DNA from: an uncultured Chlorobiaceae bacterium
GTDB lineage: Bacteria; Bacteroidota; Chlorobiia; Chlorobiales; Chlorobiaceae
Direction of reading: 5' to 3'
NCBI GenBank assembly: GCA_903843305.1
Contig: CAIMPI010000048.1
Span: forward strand, 1-47,662
DNA length: 47,662 nt
Within the stretch, counting starts at the first letter, position 1, and every line of letters begins with the position of its first letter. Position numbers and translations under genes: made by a program. Below the pieces are notes generated by a model. That model saw only the letters and a list, made by a program, of their open reading frames with translations, had not been told where the DNA came from and searched no databases. This document shows positions 16,068 to 33,956 of the stretch, piece by piece.

Positions 16068-16244
16068 AACATGGTGTTATCCGGGAGCCTTTACTCAAGA
16101 AATGAGTAAGCCAATGGCGGAGGTGATGAAAAAAGCTATATTGAAAAATACTTGCGGCCGGTTCAGACTGATCTATTCCAAACAATGTTTGCCTTCCTGC
16201 TGTCAAGCCATTGAGCTGCTCTCTAATTGTTTTGAAAAAACGTA

Positions 16245-16267
16245 CGCATTATTGTGCGATAAACGCA
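16245..16267 (+). promoter_or_regulatory. Putative Phd-family operator
   Basis: Three alternating half-sites CGCA (16245-16248), TGCG (16255-16258) and CGCA (16264-16267) form two overlapping inverted repeats just upstream of the antitoxin start. TTGAAA at 16232-16237 may be the -35 hexamer. Antitoxins of this family repress their own operon by binding such short palindromes; binding here is inferred. Confidence 0.45.
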
Positions 16268-16285
16268 TCTATCAGGGAGGATACC

Positions 16286-16528
16286 ATGCAGACACTTACG
16301 GCAAGCCAGGCACGCTCAAACCTCTACCGCATCATTGACGAAGCCGCTACAAACCATGAACCAGTAGTTATCACCGGCAAAAGAAATAATGCCGTGCTCA
16401 TCTCGACAGAAGATTGGGCATCTATCCAGGAAACCATGTACCTGCTGTCCGTTCAGGGCATGCGCGAGTCCATTATGGAAGGGCTACAGACTCCAGTTGG
16501 CGAATGTACCAAAGAGTTAGAATGGTGA
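16286..16528 (+). CDS. Phd/YefM family antitoxin
   Basis: 80-residue antitoxin with the Phd/YefM N-terminal DNA-binding fold: MQTLTASQARSNLYRIIDEA, then the strand EPVVITGKRNNAVLISTEDW. The C-terminal half (QETMYLLSVQGMRESIMEGL onward) is the flexible part that wraps the toxin. A strong AGGGAGG five bases before ATG 16286 fixes the start over upstream frames. It overlaps the toxin gene by 7 bp. It should neutralise YoeB and repress the operon. The pair interrupts an efflux operon. Confidence 0.93.
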   Translation: MQTLTASQARSNLYRIIDEAATNHEPVVITGKRNNAVLISTEDWASIQETMYLLSVQGMRESIMEGLQTPVGECTKELEW

Positions 16529-16788
16529 AGTGGGAATTGGTTTATACAAAGCATGCCAGGAAAGATGCTCAGAAATTATCTTCAGCAGGTCTGAAAGAAA
16601 AAGCGCAGGCACTTTTGATGGTTCTCGGTGAAAACCCATTTCAAAATCCACCACCTTATGAAAAATTGGTTGGTGATTTATCTGGAGCTTATTCTCGGAG
16701 AATCAACATTCAGCACCGGTTGGTTTATCAAGTTTTAGAAGAGCTTCATGTCGTTAAGGTGCTGAGGATGTGGTCACACTATGAATGA
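16522..16788 (+). CDS. YoeB-type ribosome-dependent mRNA interferase toxin
   Basis: 88-residue toxin of the RelE/YoeB family, full length. It has a WELVYTKHARKDAQKL opening, PYEKLVGDLSGAYSRRINIQHRLVYQV in the centre and the end LRMWSHYE. Glu in YEKL, Arg in INIQHRLVY and the His in the final WSHY correspond to the catalytic Glu46, Arg65 and His83 of E. coli YoeB. ATG 16522 overlaps the antitoxin stop. YoeB cuts mRNA in the ribosomal A site when the antitoxin is degraded. All catalytic positions are present, so it should be active. Confidence 0.93.
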   Translation: MVKWELVYTKHARKDAQKLSSAGLKEKAQALLMVLGENPFQNPPPYEKLVGDLSGAYSRRINIQHRLVYQVLEELHVVKVLRMWSHYE

Positions 16789-25628: not shown

Positions 25629-26246
25629 TTAAAGCACTTTACCAGCAGCAAGTTTGCGACCGAGTTTTTGCGCCTTATCGATTGTTCTTTTGCTCAGCTC
25701 CTGATGCTGTTGTTGTGCTGCAAGTCCGATAAAGAGCGTCCCGACTGTTTTAGCACCAAGTAACATTGCTGCATATTTAAGTCGCTTTATCACATCTCCG
25801 GTTAACCTTGCAAGAATGGCTGGTGCAGCGGAGGAGGCAACGAGTATCGCCCGTTTTGACTTTCCTGGGCGTCGGGCTTTAGGAGCAGGCGCTCCCCAAG
25901 GCCAGTAGGCCGTACAGACAAGACGTTCAATAAAGACCTTCATTATAGCCGTTACCGTCCCGGCATTCATCGGTGAAGCAAGAACAAGGGCATCAGCCCG
26001 TTCAATCTCTTGCAGGAGAGCACCCATATCATCATCAAGGATACAGACACCATAGTTTACTCCGGCCACCTGGGTGCAACTGCGGCAGTTGGTGCAGAAG
26101 GCAAGACGCTTGTCGAGCAGGGTGATCTTCCGGGTTACAGCCCCCATCTCTTTGGCAGAGGCAAGGATCTCATCAACAGCTCTTTCAATAATACCCCCTT
26201 TGCGGTAGCTGCCGACAATAGCAAGGATGTTCACTGGAGTATCCAT
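25629..26246 (-). CDS. Flavodoxin-fold NADPH-dependent reductase
   Basis: 205-residue flavoprotein with the FMN loop AIVGSYRKGGIIERAVDEI and a CTNCRSC cysteine group near residues 51-57, followed by CILDDDMGALLQEIERADALVLASPMNAGTVTAIMKVFIERL. The C-terminal part has an unusual basic stretch (PKARRPGKSKRAILVASSAA). It belongs to the same broad group as the 7193 gene but is only distantly similar. First gene of the redox cluster. Its upstream region shares a 15-base block with the mqsR upstream region. Confidence 0.88.
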   Translation of the reverse strand: MDTPVNILAIVGSYRKGGIIERAVDEILASAKEMGAVTRKITLLDKRLAFCTNCRSCTQVAGVNYGVCILDDDMGALLQEIERADALVLASPMNAGTVTAIMKVFIERLVCTAYWPWGAPAPKARRPGKSKRAILVASSAAPAILARLTGDVIKRLKYAAMLLGAKTVGTLFIGLAAQQQHQELSKRTIDKAQKLGRKLAAGKVL

Positions 26247-26279
26247 TTTGTTTTTCCATGATAGATTTATTAAGGTTAA

Positions 26280-26294
26280 TCAAAATGATAAAAT
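26280..26294 (-). promoter_or_regulatory. Upstream block shared with mqsR
   Basis: On the minus strand this is ATTTTATCATTTTGA, 34 bases upstream of the flavoprotein start. The identical 15 bases, with similar flanks, lie 32 bases upstream of mqsR. It contains the palindrome ATGAT-TTT-ATCAT here when one flanking base set is included. Possibly a shared promoter or operator. Confidence 0.35.
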
Positions 26295-26359
26295 CATCAA
26301 AAAGCAAACTTGGTGATTCCTGTTTGACTTGAATTTGTGAATCCTACTGTTATTGTATG

Positions 26360-26384
26360 ACATGTAGTGCATTGTACTACATGT
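26360..26384 (+). promoter_or_regulatory. Perfect operator palindrome of the truncated antitoxin
   Basis: ACATGTAGT-7 bases-ACTACATGT, a perfect 9-bp inverted repeat 17 bases before ATG 26402. TTGACT (26323-26328) and TACTGT (26345-26350), 16 bases apart, form a plausible promoter just upstream. This is the classical layout for a ribbon-helix-helix antitoxin operator; the gene it controlled is now truncated. Confidence 0.7.
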
Positions 26385-26401
26385 ATTGAGGGAGCGAGAT
26401 T

Positions 26402-26509
26402 ATGGAAAAAGAGAAAGCGGATCAGATGATCGGCATCAGCATTCCGAAGAGCATTCGACAACGGCTTGAAAGCCTGGCGATAAGAACTGGCTGCAGCAAG
26501 ACATATTAC
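26402..26509 (+). pseudogene. Truncated ribbon-helix-helix antitoxin (RelB/CopG type)
   Basis: Begins MEKEKADQMIGISIPKSIRQ and continues RLESLAIRTGCSKTYY, the well-conserved N-terminal DNA-binding half of a chromosomal RelB/CopG-like antitoxin. GGGAGCGAG precedes the ATG. Similarity stops at residue 36, exactly where the convergent mqsA gene ends (stop at 26506-26508). The C-terminal toxin-binding half and any toxin gene are missing. The frame reads on into antisense mqsA, so a DNA-binding fusion peptide could still be made. Confidence 0.75.
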
Positions 26510-26901
26510 ATCTTTTGCATCTCATCGAGTAAATCAGGATGCCGGTCTATGAGTTTCAATAACTTTATCAACGGTGCGGGAGGGCGGGTTTCGCCACGTT
26601 CATATCGTGAAAATGCAACTTTACCTACACCGAATGCCAAAGCAAGCTTTGCTTGAGTGATGTTCAGTTTTTTTCGGATGCGTCGAATGTCTGCACCAGG
26701 ATCACCCTTTACAGCTCTCACCAATCCCTCCTGAGCCTCTGTATACCGTCGATAACTCTCTTCGTTCCAGATACCTTCTCCGCAATGTGAGCAGAATTGG
26801 CCATGCATTGCGTGCAACGTCATCGACTTTCCGCCGTATGAAAGAGTTTCCTCGACAACTTTATCCATCATTCCGGCACAACCACATGAAGGGCATTTCA
26901 T
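26506..26901 (-). CDS. mqsA: MqsA-family antitoxin
   Basis: 131-residue antitoxin with both MqsA domains. The N-terminal zinc domain has C3, C6, C37 and C40 (MKCPSCGC and QFCSHCGEG), at the same positions as in E. coli MqsA. The C-terminal helix-turn-helix has ITQAKLALAFGVGKVAFSRYERGETRPP. It starts 12 bp after mqsR, the usual toxin-first order. It should bind MqsR and repress the operon. The gene is complete; its stop abuts the truncated ribbon-helix-helix antitoxin facing it. Confidence 0.95.
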   Translation of the reverse strand: MKCPSCGCAGMMDKVVEETLSYGGKSMTLHAMHGQFCSHCGEGIWNEESYRRYTEAQEGLVRAVKGDPGADIRRIRKKLNITQAKLALAFGVGKVAFSRYERGETRPPAPLIKLLKLIDRHPDLLDEMQKM

Positions 26902-26913
26902 CGTATTTCCAAT

Positions 26914-27222
26914 TCATTTTGCTTTAAACTGTATCACAGGAAGCCGACTATCCGAAAACCCTGTGATTTTAATATAAACGAGAACTCCATCCTCTGTTTT
27001 GCCATGATACACATCCTGCCAGAGCTGGTGGTCTGCATGGGTCGTCATTGATTTGTAGAAATCGGCTCTTTTCAATAAAAGCACAACTTGACGCATGTCC
27101 GATTCGGTCAAGCCCAAAGAGAAACCTCCTTGTAACGCACTTCTCGTGAATGGTCGTGAGGTCATATCAGCAACTGTTGCCTGCACTTCCGTGAGCCTGT
27201 AATGCGGAGCTTTTTTCTCCAA
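26914..27222 (-). CDS. mqsR: MqsR-family mRNA interferase toxin
   Basis: 102-residue toxin matching MqsR in length and order: PHYRLTEVQATVADM, the mid region FSLGLTESDMRQVVLLLKRADFYKSMTTHADHQLWQDVYH, and the end LVYIKITGFSDSRLPVIQFK. The Lys, Tyr and late basic residues used by E. coli MqsR for GCU-specific cleavage have plausible counterparts (KSMTT, YIKI), but exact alignment is needed. MqsR is a ribosome-independent RNase linked to dormancy and biofilm. It is first in the mqsRA operon and 115 bp downstream of jetD on the same strand. Confidence 0.93.
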   Translation of the reverse strand: MEKKAPHYRLTEVQATVADMTSRPFTRSALQGGFSLGLTESDMRQVVLLLKRADFYKSMTTHADHQLWQDVYHGKTEDGVLVYIKITGFSDSRLPVIQFKAK

Positions 27223-27253
27223 AAGAAATACTTTGCCTACTTGGAAAATTTAG

Positions 27254-27268
27254 TCAAAATGATAAAAT
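27254..27268 (-). promoter_or_regulatory. Upstream block shared with the flavoprotein gene
   Basis: Minus-strand ATTTTATCATTTTGA, 32 bases before the mqsR start, continuing to TTGACT, a plausible -35. The same block precedes the flavoprotein gene at 26280-26294 at nearly the same distance. Confidence 0.35.
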
Positions 27269-27336
27269 TCCTCAAAAAACCAAAGGCTTTTCTGCGTTCA
27301 TTGAAAACTTGCATTGTCTTAAACCGCAACCATCGC

Positions 27337-28521
27337 TCAAATCCTCCCCAAAGCCTCCAAGACTCCAACCAGCCACTCAAACCCAATCCTCTCCTGCTCA
27401 AGCCGTAGGTGACTGCCCAGGTCATCCCTCCGTAACTGATCATAAAGTCCACTCTCTTCAGCGGTCAGTCGCGTGAGCGCACCAGTTTCGGGAGATGGCT
27501 CAACGCCCCAAAGCGCTTGATGCTCCAGTAGCGTCTCACGATCCATCAGAAGGGAAGCCACATGGGGAAAGATCCCGCGCAACTGGTTGAGGATGGCGAA
27601 GCCGTGGGTGTCGATGTCGCCCCAGTAATGGATAACGCGGTCACGCAGCCACTCGACTGCGGCCAAATTCTCGAACCCATAACCGGCTCCAAAAATCACC
27701 ATCGCCTCGGGAACATCGGGGAAGGCGAGAAAGTTGATTTCGTTTTCGGTGATGAAAACCCTGGTAACAGGCAGCTCCAGCCGGGCAAAGGTTGCCTGTG
27801 TCACCGTGATATCCTGATTGCTCTCCGTCGAGAACAGCGCCAGTGCCGGGTCGAGGATGCGGAAACGCACCCGCAGGGGTTTGTCCTGAAAGCCGTAACG
27901 GCGGCAGAACCCGCTGGCTCCTGTGGCTGTTGCGTCAATCTCCTCCGGCGGAAGGACGAGGTCGAACAGCTCCCCAAGCACGCCCCGGTGCCCTTCGATG
28001 AATTTGCTGTGCACGCCGGGCAGGTCGATCTGGCGCTGGTAGATTCCCGGGCGGGGATGTTTGAGACGCCAGGCGACAATAGAGAGGATGCGGGGCCACT
28101 CTTCGGCCAGTTCGAGGGCACGCAGAGGACGTTTTGCCAGCCAGGGGAGAAGCGCTGGTTGCTCGTCGCGGGTGAGCTTGACCATGGTGGCAAACTGCCG
28201 GGCTTCTTGCCGCTTGCCAATCAGACCGAGGGCATCGTCCAGCGTGTCAATCCAGATTTCTGCCGGAAGTTCATTGGCTCCATGAGTTTGGGGGTTGACG
28301 CTGCGCCGGACAATCCGATATTGTTTGGCTGCGCCGGAGAGTCGCATAATCCAGTCGCGCACTTCGATAAAAGAGTCGCGCAACTCTCTGGAATCAGGCC
28401 CTTTGAGCGTCAGGCGACGGGGAAAAACCGATTCGCCGCCAATCAGGGAAGAGAGGATGATGCCCCGATCCCATAGTTTCTGAACCTGGGCCTTGAGTTC
28501 AGCGGAAGTTGTCCAGCTCAT
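27337..28521 (-). CDS. jetD: Wadjet JetD, TOPRIM nuclease subunit (DUF3322-DUF2220)
   Basis: 394-residue JetD. The N-terminal DUF3322 arm (about residues 1-190) has WDRG..L and the [10 protein letters not shown] region. The C-terminal DUF2220 domain has the TOPRIM-like acids in [14 protein letters not shown] (E near 259-261), [18 protein letters not shown] (D302 and D304) and a LEQE near residue 375. JetD is the nuclease that cuts closed circular plasmid DNA after JetABC has extruded it. ATG 28521 overlaps the jetC stop by 4 bp (ATGA), which decides the start over longer upstream frames. All key acids are present, so it should be active. Last gene of jetABCD. Confidence 0.95.
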
Positions 28522-31500
28522 TCCAGTGCCTTCATTTTTTCGGCGCGATACTCTTCGATGGTGAGGTTGCGCAACACCGAGCAACGACCATCCTGATTGT
28601 GAACAAAGCCGACGCTGGAGACGAAGGGTTCGATGATGTGGATTTTCTGCAACGGCGTGACAATCAGCAGTTGCAGATTGAGCTGAGCGAAGAGTTGCAG
28701 GCCGTACTGGGCCGATTCGTCGGAGCCGCGTCCGAAGGCTTCGTCGATGACCACAAAGCGGAAGGAGCGTGAGCGCACTGCTCCCCACTCCAGACCGAAT
28801 TGATAGGCAAGGCTTGCGGCAAGCACCGTGTAGGCGAGCTTCTCCTTCTGCCCTCCCGATTTGCCCCCCGAATCGGCGTAGTGTTCATGTTCACTGTCAT
28901 CTTCGCGCCACCGCTCGCTGGCGGCAAAGACGAACCAGTTGCGCACGTCGGTCACTTTGGCTGTCCAGCGCCGGTCGAGGTCGGCATACGCTTCACGGCC
29001 CTGGAAGCGATCAATGATGCGCCGCACTTGAAGGAATTTGGCTTCCGAGTACTGTGCGTCGTCCGAGCCGGTCAGCGAGCCTTCGGTGCAGGCACGCAGC
29101 TCCGACTGAAAGTCACGGATGTCGGCATCGAGGTTCATCTGTGCTTCGAGGGTGATGTATCGGCCCGCATTGAAGTCGATCTGCGTGAGCGATTCGTTGA
29201 GGCGGGTAATGCGCTCCTTGATGGTCTCCCGCTCACGGGCCAGTTGCGACTGAAAATTGGCCACCTCGCGAATGGTATTTTCGTTGAGCAGATCCTTGAA
29301 CCGCCCCTCAAAGCGAGGCAGATCGTCGGCCCGGAGTTGCTCAAACATTGACCGATACTCCTTTCCTGCGGCAATGTTGACATCCACTTCGCGGGTCTCC
29401 AGTTTCCACGCCTCCTTGTACTCGGTCATCGCCCTGATGATCTTTTCGCCCAGTCGGGAGAGCTTCCTGTCTTCGCCGTCTATCTTTACCTGCAACCAGT
29501 CACGCATCTCCCGCTCGCGATTGTCGCACGATTCAACCGTCAGCGACTGATCACCGAAAGCCTCATTGCGCATGAGCTGGAGCGCGGGGAAACGAGTGGC
29601 AACTTCCGCCCCCGCTTCAGCCAGCAGTGCTGCCGTCTGCTGCTGTAGCTCCGTGATGCCGCTGATTTTCTGCTCGATTTTTGACCGTTTATCTTTTCGG
29701 TCATCGAGCTGTCGCTCCGTCTCATGCAGCTCCTGCTCCAGCACGGCAAGTTGCTCGGTCAGGGTTTGCAGGATATTGGATGTGGCTTCAAGGTCGCGCT
29801 TTTCCGTCTCCAGCCTGGCGATAGCAACGGCCAGCGGCTGCCAGTCGAGATCGCTGAAATCGGGATATTCGTCAAGCTTGGAGAGGATGGTCAGCCGATC
29901 CTTGAGGGTTTTCTGCTCCTGCTGCAAGCTGCTGATGCGGCCTGCAAGTTTGGCAAGCTCGCTTTGCTGCTGCTTGGCCTTCTCTTCAAGGACGGCAATT
30001 TTGGCGGCATTGCTCCATCCCAGCACGTAGCGGCTGCGGTCGTCGAGGCGGTGGCGGTCATCCTTTTCGTGCCGTTCACCCGGCGACTTGATCTGTCCAG
30101 CCTGGGTGATGGCTTTTTTCTCCCTCCTAAAATCCTCCTGACTCATGCAGCAGACCAGATCGAAACGATGGGCCACCTCCCGTTCGAGCCAGTCAAAATA
30201 AGGAGAATCGCCTTTGATGGCGAGCTTTCTGGCAAGTGATGCCGGGTGGTCGGGCAACTGCTCGCTGCGGGAGAGCTGGCGCACCCGAAAATAGACAAGA
30301 CGCCCTTTCAGATTGGTACGCTCCACCCATTCGGCCACCTTCGGGTAGTGATGGTCGGGCACCAGCAACGAGAGGCCGAAATTGCGGAGCACCCGCTCAA
30401 TGGCTCCTTCCCAGAGCTGCTCTCCCTCCTGAACCTGAAGCAACTCGCCAGCAAAGGGCATCTCAACCTCAGGCAGATTCAGCGCCTTGCAGAGTAAACG
30501 GCGCATGGTAATCTGCTTATCGTCGATATTGCTCATGCGGGCTTTCAGGCTCTTGATCTCGGTGCTCAACTGCTCATGCTCCTGACGCCCCTGGGTAAAG
30601 AGGACTCCCGCCTCATTGAGATCGTTTTGCACCCGCACTTCAGCTTCGGCCGTTGCCTCGTGCATGGCTGCATGTCCGGCATGCTGCTGATAAAACTCCT
30701 CGGCGCTGGTTGCAGGATGCTCCCCAAGCTGGCCCGCCAGTTTTCCATACCGGGTTGCCTTCTGGTTGCGCCGTTCAAGCTCTTGCTGATGCTGCCGAAT
30801 CTCTGCGGCGATACTCTCAATCCGGTCTCCCCCGTTTTCAGCGATGGTTCGGCGCAGCTCACGATCACGTCCCTGCAGGGTGCGCCGTTCTCCGTCCAAA
30901 CGCTCGATGACGATCTGGTGGCGGCTCAGCTCCTCATGCAGTGCGGTATGGCGTTTGTCGAGCAGTTCGAGTTTGAGGGAGGCGAACCAAGGGCGAAGGC
31001 TGTCGCGCGATGCCCGAAGCTCTTCCGATCGTAGCGCCATAGCGTGGTGATTGTCGCAATCTGCCACCAGAGGACCCAGCATCTCAATCTGCCGCTTCGC
31101 CTTGAGAACAGCTTCGTGCGCTCGGTTGAGATCTTCGAAGTGCTGGATAAGGGCGGCAATGCGTGGCTCAACCGTGAAGGGCTCAAGCATGTGGAGGCGC
31201 ACAAAATCGGTCAGGTTGCCCACCGACTTGAGCGAGACGGTTTGATGAAACAGCTCCAGCGCCTGCTCGTTCTCAATCCCGAAGCGTCGCCGGAACCAGG
31301 CACCATAAGGTGGAAAGCTCTCAAACAGCTCAACTCCAGCCCCGCGAAGACGTTTGCGCAAGGTTGAAATTTCGGTGCCGAACGATGAAAAATCGGTGGC
31401 GATGGAGAGGTCGCCCTCATAAGCGGCATAGATGCGGGCAGGCTGTGCGGCATCCTTCATCCAGAAAATTTGTGCCAAGGTCACCGTTTTGTCGTACCCT

Positions 31501-31886
31501 TCGTTATGAAAAACACCAAGGATGACCGAATAACTGTTGGATTCGCGAAGGGCTACCGGTTTGGCGCCGCCTCCGAGACTCTCCTGCCGCTCCGACTTGA
31601 AGTAGCCCAGCACGTAGGAGCGCAGGGTGCGTTCACGGTTGTCGGCGCCTGCCGCCTTGTTGTAGGCGATGCGCTGGTTTGGTACCAAGAGTGTGGTCAA
31701 GGCATCGACCAGCGTCGATTTTCCGGAGCCGATATCCCCCGTGAGGAGGGCGTTTTTCCCGCCCAGTTTGAGCGTCCAGACCCTGCCGTCGAAGGTGCCC
31801 CAGTTGAATATCTCAAGCCGTTGCAGGCGAAAACCGGCCAGACGGTCATCAGCAATAAATCCCATTTCAAGCGACTCACTCATCAT
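28518..31886 (-). CDS. jetC: Wadjet JetC, MukB/SMC-like ATPase
   Basis: 1122-residue SMC-like motor. Head with [11 protein letters not shown] and Walker [10 protein letters not shown] (residues 50-58). Two long coiled-coil arms follow (about 270-440 and 620-930) around a hinge-like middle with [20 protein letters not shown] and [22 protein letters not shown]. The ABC signature is [20 protein letters not shown] and Walker B is [16 protein letters not shown]. Length and order match JetC (COG4913). With JetA (kleisin, MukF-like) and JetB (MukE-like) it extrudes DNA loops. It overlaps jetB by 11 bp and jetD by 4 bp. Base composition is visibly richer in G+C than the flanking genes, suggesting transfer. 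Confidence 0.96.
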
Positions 31887-32511
31887 GTCCCTCCATCACT
31901 TTTACCGGTCGCTGCAGGTATTCGTCAAGTCGTTTATCAAAATCGGCCAGCCATTGGGCATCGATAAATGCCTTGATAATCCGGCGCACCTCTATCATCT
32001 GCCTCTCTCCCTTCAACCGGCGGATAAAACCAAGATCGGCGATTTTATTCAGCGTCGAATCGACCTGGTCGATCAACTTGACCTCATTGCTGGCGGCAGG
32101 CAGGAAAATCCTGATCAGCTCAACCACCTCATCCCGCGAAAGAATCAGGCGCGTGTCACCAGCTCCCGCATCAAACTCGGCAAGTTTTTTGCGAAGCAGC
32201 GCTAGGAGCAGGCTGACCGGGTAGGAGAGCTGCCTGCGAGCCATCAGTCGGGGAGTGCTGTTCGCCCCCTCCGTTTCGCTTTCGGAATTTGATCGCAAAA
32301 AAGCATATCCTTCCGCCTCATCAAGGATTAACTCCAGACCAAGCACCGCTACGTAATCGCGAACGGCAGCCATCAGGTTGAGCAACGATCCCCATAATGC
32401 AGGGTTATCCTCTTGGTAGATCACCCCTTTCAAAAGAGGAACCACGATTGACGCAAGCTCCTGACCATGAAAAGGCGATCTGCTGTTTTCACTCTCTGTA
32501 TGGTTCATCAT
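31876..32511 (-). CDS. jetB: Wadjet JetB, MukE-like subunit (DUF4194)
   Basis: 211-residue DUF4194 protein made of winged-helix repeats: [20 protein letters not shown], the central [23 protein letters not shown], and [17 protein letters not shown] with the C-terminal [20 protein letters not shown]. It acts as the kite (MukE-like) subunit bridging JetA and JetC. It starts MM at 32511 with ATGA overlap to the jetA stop and ends inside the jetC start, so translation of the whole operon is coupled. Size is normal for JetB. Confidence 0.94.
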
Positions 32512-33956
32512 CCGTTTCTTAATAAGATAATACGCGGCAAGGTGGCCTCACGGGTTGTGCCCGTCGAACTCTGCCATTGCACCTGCTCCTCTACCCCTTC
32601 ATCCACCGTTGTTCTTGGCCACTCTCCGGCAAGTTGGAGATAGGCCACCAGCTCTGCCAGCCCGTTATGCAGAGGATGACGAGCAACCATCTCTCCGAGG
32701 GTGACCTGGTTGCGCATCTGAAGTTCCAGACGGATATTTCGCAACAGCTCTGCCCGGTCGACTATCACCTGGGCGTAGAGAATTGCGGTATCAATCTCCG
32801 CATCCCCCTCATCAAGAGCAATACCGGCAATCAATGGTCTGAACGGAGGGCGATAGAGCGCTCTTTCGAGAGGCAGTTCAATGAGCGCGGCTGAGCCGTC
32901 AAGAGGCATGAAGCCGCCTGAAGGGAGATCATCGCGCAAATCAAGGGCCTGGGTTTCGACGTTGTGCAGAATATCCATGATGCGCCGATTCTCGAGCCAC
33001 GCCTTGTCATCAAGAAAGCGGCGCAACTGCTCGGAGAGGCGGGCCACCGTGCGCTGGGTATGCTCTCCGGCTTCAAGCCAGTCGTAGTGAACTCGCCGCA
33101 GACGGTTGTCGGGGCGCATCGAAATGATCGGCGGCAAGGCCAGCACCTCCTCCAGAAGCAGACTCAGCTCCTCTTGGCGTGACTGCGACATGAGAAAGTC
33201 CCAGAATGCCCGAAAGCTTTTCCCCTGATCCGAATCGGCGATGGCATCACGCTCACCCATGATCTGCTCCAGCAGCGCCCCCTTGGCCCCCTCCCAGAGG
33301 GCAATGCGCTCACGCACGCGGCGGTCGAGGGTGCGAAAGTTGTGCTCCACCTCGCGAAAATCGGTCAACAACTCACGGGCCAGTTGCAGAAACTGCTGAA
33401 AGCGATCCTTCAGGCCGGTGTCATCAAGCAGCGATATCTCTCCGGCACGGATTCGGGCAATTTCGGCATCAATATCGTCACGCCGCTTTTGCAGCTCGGC
33501 AATCCGTACTTCAGGATCAGCCTGGCTTCCCGTGCTCATCTGCCGCAAAAGTTCGAAGAGGGTAAGCAGCCTCGACTCGGTGCCCACAAACGCACGCTCA
33601 GTCAAGCTCTCCAGCCAGGCCAGTGCTTTTTCAGTGGAGGCCGTCAGGTCGAAGTGAGGCTCATCTGTCCCGTCCGGATAGAATTTGCGCAGCCACCCCT
33701 TGTCGTTCTCGGCCCACTCATTCAGGTAACTTTGCGCCGTACCGGGAAACTGGTCGGTGCCCAGTTGCTGGCGCAGGGCAAAAAGCTCATCCTCCAGCGC
33801 CTCAACGAGATCCGCCTGCGAGAGAATCCGCACATTGGGCACAATAAAGACCCGGTGCAGAAACCCGGCCACCAGCGGCGCATGCTGGGCGCACAAGAGG
33901 CGCCAGGCAGGATGGTTCTGACGGAGCAGGTTCAGGGTGGAGTAGTCGAGAGCCAA
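32508..33956 (-). CDS. jetA: Wadjet JetA, kleisin/MukF-like subunit (DUF3375)
   Basis: 482-residue DUF3375 protein opening LDYSTLNLLRQNHPAWRLLC and AP.VAGFLHRVF, the JetA hallmark. Middle coiled coil (ELQKRRDDIDAEIARIRAGE) and a C-terminal winged helix with PRIILLRNG close the chain. The start is TTG 33956, giving MALDYS; no in-frame ATG lies upstream, and shorter starts would cut the conserved opening. First gene of jetABCD; its promoter must lie in the 168 bp before the priA stop. Full length. Confidence 0.93.
   Translation of the reverse strand: MALDYSTLNLLRQNHPAWRLLCAQHAPLVAGFLHRVFIVPNVRILSQADLVEALEDELFALRQQLGTDQFPGTAQSYLNEWAENDKGWLRKFYPDGTDEPHFDLTASTEKALAWLESLTERAFVGTESRLLTLFELLRQMSTGSQADPEVRIAELQKRRDDIDAEIARIRAGEISLLDDTGLKDRFQQFLQLARELLTDFREVEHNFRTLDRRVRERIALWEGAKGALLEQIMGERDAIADSDQGKSFRAFWDFLMSQSRQEELSLLLEEVLALPPIISMRPDNRLRRVHYDWLEAGEHTQRTVARLSEQLRRFLDDKAWLENRRIMDILHNVETQALDLRDDLPSGGFMPLDGSAALIELPLERALYRPPFRPLIAGIALDEGDAEIDTAILYAQVIVDRAELLRNIRLELQMRNQVTLGEMVARHPLHNGLAELVAYLQLAGEWPRTTVDEGVEEQVQWQSSTGTTREATLPRIILLRNG

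Follow-up and report, generated by a model that had tools for sequence, protein, structure and literature searches.

A stretch of DNA between a flavodoxin gene and a Wadjet defence locus of an uncultured Chlorobiaceae bacterium carries what is very probably a decaying, functionless stump of a relBE toxin-antitoxin operon, left by a deletion of about 0.56 kb. The relic looks real but ordinary, a product of deletion that undergoes ordinary decay rather than a new regulator. The relic alone would be a gene fragment of little weight; together with its relatives it documents the loss and swapping of neighbouring toxin-antitoxin operons beside a Wadjet locus. Homology, gene order in relatives, the junction and the sequence changes were read directly from the DNA. 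Searches of the open-access literature retrieved no publication on this locus and none of relevance to microhomology and antisense at toxin-antitoxin operons. A table on the distribution of toxin-antitoxin operons in Makarova et al. includes several Chlorobium genomes. In contrast to the decayed toxin-antitoxin remnants and solo antitoxins described by these authors, relatives here supply the intact form together with several different breakpoints.

A truncated relB gene beside mqsRA

The window, i.e. the whole stretch of 47,662 nucleotides that was analysed, is contig C48 of a 2.59-Mb genome with a completeness of 99.94%. The gene order is flavodoxin (-), relic (+), mqsA (-) and mqsR (-), followed by jetD, jetC, jetB and jetA, all on the minus strand (Table 1). 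The Wadjet type I genes jetABCD span 27337-33956 (PADLOC JetA1-D1). The same window contains the two genes of the candidate anti-phage system HEC-01 at 521-2342 (HEC-01A, 2.9e-135; HEC-01B, 2.4e-75), and two ORFs of 105 and 124 amino acids at 16211-16788 may, by eye, be a yefM/yoeB-like pair.

Table 1. Positions of the relic, its upstream elements and the adjoining genes in the window.
Feature	Position	Strand	Evidence and remarks
Flavodoxin/FMN reductase gene	25629..26246	-	PF03358; left boundary of the toxin-antitoxin interval
First putative operator box of the relic	26353..26369	+	TTGTATGACATGTAGTG; relatives near TTGTRTAACATGTATTG; base shared by all 12 compared relatives changed, A to G
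Inverted repeat	26360..26384		12-nt arms, 11/12 pairs (92% complementary), 1-nt centre
Second putative operator box of the relic	26372..26388	+	TTGTACTACATGTATTG; relatives near TTGTATAACATGTATTG; base shared by all 12 compared relatives changed, A to T
relB relic, codons 1-37 of a RelB-type RHH antitoxin	26402..26512	+	Homology to intact copies
Actual open frame, 84 aa	26402..26656	+	37 relB codons, continued by 47 that are antisense to mqsA
Putative deletion junction, common TTACAT(C)	26506..26512		relB homology ends here; also the 3' end of mqsA with the stop codon
mqsA antitoxin gene	26506..26901	-	PF15731 (4.6e-46), TIGR03830; apparently intact, under purifying selection
mqsR toxin gene, TTG start	26914..27222	-	PF15723 (7.4e-32); apparently intact
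jetD, Wadjet type I	27337..28518	-	PF09983, PF11795; right boundary of the toxin-antitoxin interval

The plus-strand RHH/RelB-like coding sequence is homologous to intact relatives up to codon 37, where it is joined to the 3' end of mqsA. Thus the truncated RHH antitoxin gene reported beside mqsRA in the initial annotation is real, yet contrary to the statement there its frame runs past the mqsA stop codon. That codon reads TTA on the plus strand, and the frame stays open to 26656.

The 37 codons were matched in 30 of 98 genomes of the order (E ≤ 0.001). All 37 align with relB of G010 at 89% identity, which demonstrates common descent with intact RelBE members. Intact homologues have 80-82 codons and usually overlap a RelE-type toxin gene. 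A RelE frame lies directly behind relB in 20 of the 29 translated loci other than that of the window (one of the 20 is shortened) and in 72 of the 80 named homologues kept from at least 248 relatives in a genome contig collection. The named records matching the relatives belong to Chlorobium, Chlorobaculum and other Chlorobiaceae, which marks the source of the window as a green sulfur bacterium. The intact antitoxin scores 112.6 bits against the NCBIfam RelB-like family (cut-off 50), and its partner toxin matches RelE_StbE (NCBIfam) and ParE_toxin (Pfam). With a pair of this kind, and a RelE frame usually behind relB, we concluded that the relic was once a relBE operon. It shares the coding start, the putative upstream boxes and the first 37 residues with RelBE-type operons (RHH antitoxin NF048017/RelE-ParE toxin PF05016), the nearest intact copies being in other Chlorobiaceae. 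Unlike these operons it lacks the toxin-binding half of the antitoxin and the toxin gene, and it differs at two of the most conserved residues. The relic covers positions 2-25 of 70 of the RelB-like profile with 20.8 bits, short of a full antitoxin with RHH and C-terminal toxin-binding parts, and directly downstream no RelE/ParE toxin gene was found; antisense of mqsA follows instead. Matches to the G010 RelE elsewhere in the genome are on other contigs, with 35-40% identity. A search of a plasmid collection returned one 73-bp match covering 7% of the query.

A native antitoxin of 37 codons was considered and rejected, as none of the 29 other translated loci ends at codon 37. Four of them are short, i.e. 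G034 (without start), G007 (internal deletion), G069 (no longer matching the family past codon 50) and G058 C90 (reaching the contig end). Thus no relative was found in which the short form is the intact gene, in agreement with the initial annotation.

A probable deletion between facing operons

G034 shares with the window the ADH and flavodoxin genes as well as the upstream sequence up to window position 26356. It has lost the operator and the start codon; relB codons 13-82 and about 11 relE codons are kept, followed by mqsA and mqsR. The two genomes are complementary in that G034 lacks what the window retains, operator and start, and retains part of what the window has lost. relB reads ATATTACATTCG in G034 and the mqsA end reads AGCTTACATCTT, while the window reads ATATTACATCTT. 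Homology in the window switches within the common TTACAT(C), and the cut seems to fall exactly at the mqsA stop because TTACAT holds that codon. This junction was found in one genome only. Intact relB-relE facing mqsA-mqsR occurs in G029 and G006, with 557 bp between the codon-37 position and the mqsA stop in G029. Both are at another locus, therefore their arrangement is an analogue and does not prove the ancestral state. G034, which has the same neighbours, keeps the part missing from the window; the comparison therefore speaks for loss of DNA between relBE and mqsRA as adjacent operons facing each other, rather than for a landing of mqsRA in relBE.

The ancestor would have carried relBE on the plus strand facing mqsRA on the minus strand, between the flavodoxin gene and jetD. 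A deletion running from the TTACAT in relB codons 35-37 to the one that contains the mqsA stop codon, for which we infer a single step and a size of about 0.56 kb, would account for the loss of antitoxin codons 38-82, of the relE toxin gene in full and of the spacer. The mqsA stop codon would have been kept because it sits inside the repeat. Left over would be the upstream region, an altered operator and 37 codons continued by 47 antisense codons, with no toxin to neutralise, and this leftover is most likely inert and decaying.

That one pair had replaced the rest of another, as first proposed, is borne out as far as the remnant of a second pair beside mqsRA is concerned. It is unlikely, however, that mqsRA came in as a cassette, inserting into relB and displacing relE and the 3' part of relB. 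Such an arrival would fit the presence of mqsRA at several loci with differing neighbours, the homology left of mqsA, which in the window and several further genomes breaks off precisely at the stop codon, and the flavodoxin-jetD intervals of G059 and G016, which are empty of the toxin-antitoxin genes searched for. On the other hand, G034 holds relB codons 13-82 and the relE start together with 61 bp of mqsA downstream sequence common to G031, G042, G045 and G058, and therefore mqsRA and the relB 3' part coexisted there. Furthermore, the junction lies at a 6-bp common word and no element ends were seen.

The upstream region of the relic

The 25-bp palindrome upstream of the relic had been described as a perfect operator left behind by the truncation. 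It pairs at 11 of 12 arm positions, a value attained in 4 of 2000 mononucleotide shuffles of 26247-26402; therefore the inverted repeat is not simple chance. The relatives show a different pattern. Twelve of the 29 other upstream regions were compared, picked for almost gap-free alignment; G034 (region absent), G072 (second box absent) and others with different spacing or no clear second box were left out. All 12 carry two direct boxes near TTGTATAACATGTATTG, 19 bp apart and identical to each other at 13-17 of 17 positions (14 of 17 in the window). In the window both boxes are recognisable as candidates at the same spacing, and each has lost an invariant base, one in each AAC. A wider alignment showed the first box to be kept in 28 of 29 loci, each with TAA in place of the TGA of the window. 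Read as a palindrome, the same DNA pairs at 8 or 9 of 12 positions in the 12 relatives. The lost invariant bases and the low pairing in relatives imply that the greater symmetry arose as the conserved pattern was lost. Judging from this alignment the palindrome is a derived by-product of change in a direct-box operator, and the idea of a native 25-bp palindromic operator was rejected. The example cautions that an operator really built from paired direct boxes can, as it changes, give rise to a striking palindrome as a by-product. With up to 3 mismatches, the ancestral operator pattern has a single match in the window genome, at the relic.

A promoter had also been reported here. A scan for sigma-70 consensus hexamers 16-18 nt apart with 9 of 12 matches found none on the plus strand upstream of the relic; its single match in 26200-27400 is at 27241. 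This bears on the idea that the stump works as a cis-regulator, in which the old promoter has escaped its repressor and sends antisense transcripts into mqsA, thereby adjusting the antitoxin. The upstream region and the start codon of the relic do survive, which counts against decay, the genome has no intact homologue of the relic's antitoxin, and no terminator was found between relic and mqsA. Nevertheless we regard such a cis-regulator as very unlikely, given the outcome of the promoter scan and the boxes altered at invariant bases. In addition, identity to G034 is about 87% in the flank up to 26356 and about 85% in the relic stretch 26439-26511. Flank and relic are similarly close to G034, whose own copy is broken; therefore neither looks specially conserved. 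That the stump has been kept because the freed promoter drives antisense RNA through both mqsA and mqsR is even less likely; if true, the death of one toxin-antitoxin pair would have rewired the dose of the next. Thus we favor the view of a decaying stump that probably exerts no regulatory effect.

The product of the relic

A further proposal was a repressor-like peptide, i.e. a product of 37 to 84 residues with remaining affinity for the operator or for another RHH antitoxin, serving as a solitary or dominant-negative repressor. Codons 1-37 do cover the DNA-contacting strand and helix A. In the RHH fold helix B is required for the dimer and for backbone anchoring. The intact antitoxin was modelled with a mean pLDDT of 90.4 and helices at 16-29 and 33-62 (helix B), and of the 30 helix-B residues in this model the window retains five. 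The 84-residue ORF of the window, modelled with the same family alignment built from 36 of the 80 homologues, yielded a pLDDT of 51.4 and a pTM of 0.31, i.e. a poor predicted fold.

Two conserved arginines are changed as well. R31 is arginine in 80 of 80 homologues and cysteine in the window; R13 is arginine in 77 of 79, glutamine in the other two and serine in the window. A gap-free alignment places R13 opposite residue 9 of the PutA RHH domain, presumably the lysine that contacts DNA. AmrZ, another RHH protein, makes base contacts through the strand residue Arg22 and is anchored to DNA by the N-terminus of its helix 2; the mutant R22A is reported to bind DNA 44-fold less well (PMC3325190). 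By analogy, R13 of the relic family may be likened to Arg22 of AmrZ. A product that still binds is thus extremely improbable, and a functionless stump is the preferred reading of the coding sequence, too.

Signs of relaxed selection are weak and only suggestive. Codons found in the window only encode four new residues and none seen elsewhere, compared to a ratio of 17:19 in 14 relatives (one-sided Fisher p = 0.065). The median pairwise dN/dS of the relic was 0.097 for pairs with the window vs. 0.070 for the remaining pairs, calculated with 14 relatives after the near-duplicates G057, G062, G019 and G067, which are part of the codon count, had been dropped and four more distant ones added.

The mqsRA operon

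MqsRA systems are defined by mRNA cleavage by MqsR, which MqsA neutralises. The window has the typical order, an MqsR-family toxin gene preceding mqsA in one minus-strand operon, and an antitoxin with an N-terminal zinc finger and a C-terminal HTH (PF15731, PF01381, TIGR03830, TIGR03831); its assignment here is based on sequence. The dN/dS of mqsA against 10 relatives was 0.03-0.10, therefore the surviving antitoxin is maintained, and mqsRA looks intact and constrained. The E. coli MqsRA operator is the palindrome AACCT(N)AGGTT (PMC4894380). Unlike E. coli MqsRA, the window does not have this operator nearby, a single match with up to 2 mismatches in 26201-27400 being located at 27278, and the 3' end of mqsA adjoins a relB stump.

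The sequence TCAAAATGATAAAAT, which contains the small palindrome ATCAAAATGAT, occurs at 26280-26294 and 27254-27268 in the same orientation. The first copy precedes the flavodoxin start by 33 bp, the second the mqsR start by 31 bp. These are the only two copies in the whole genome (≤1 mismatch). At the flavodoxin loci checked it is exact in G000, G034 and G014 and absent within 90 bp in most others. TCAAAATGATAAAAT is possibly a common operator or a captured promoter.

In G058 (L062) and G045 (L063) mqsR is deleted from near its start to the last codons, and mqsA is intact and constrained. By their sequences, these mqsA genes are probable orphan antitoxins adjoining jetD.

Turnover of toxin-antitoxin genes beside jetD

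Relics beside jetD or the flavodoxin gene were found in at least 5 of 65 genus genomes (the window, G034, G007, G042 and G058). In G007 relB codons 1-21 are joined to the last codons, and the relic adjoins jetD with no mqsRA between. In G042 (L070, 2305-2867) relB is present from codon 22 on, joined head-to-head to the 3' part of mqsA, and is followed by an intact relE. In this genome relBE lies on the other side of mqsA, therefore other rearrangements occurred. There the toxin gene remains, with an antitoxin that lacks operator, start and DNA-binding strand. The G058 relic consists of relE codons 8-32 only.

The content of the flavodoxin-jetD interval also varies. It holds relBE scraps and mqsRA in G000 and G034, and a relE scrap with DUF4258/YgiT-finger genes in G058. 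G014, which has the flavodoxin/FMN reductase neighbour in common with the window and G034, carries in place of relBE/mqsRA the genes for a DUF4258 protein, a protein with a YgiT-like zinc finger and a Phd/YefM antitoxin (L061, 5443-7183). Taken together, these comparisons indicate that the interval beside jetD turns over toxin-antitoxin genes.

A second, diverged jetD 3'-end fragment lies downstream of mqsA in G031 (L064, 1499-1786), G058 (L062, 4009-4152) and G042 (L070, 3003-3170), as if gene ends had been duplicated when cassettes were added beside jetD.
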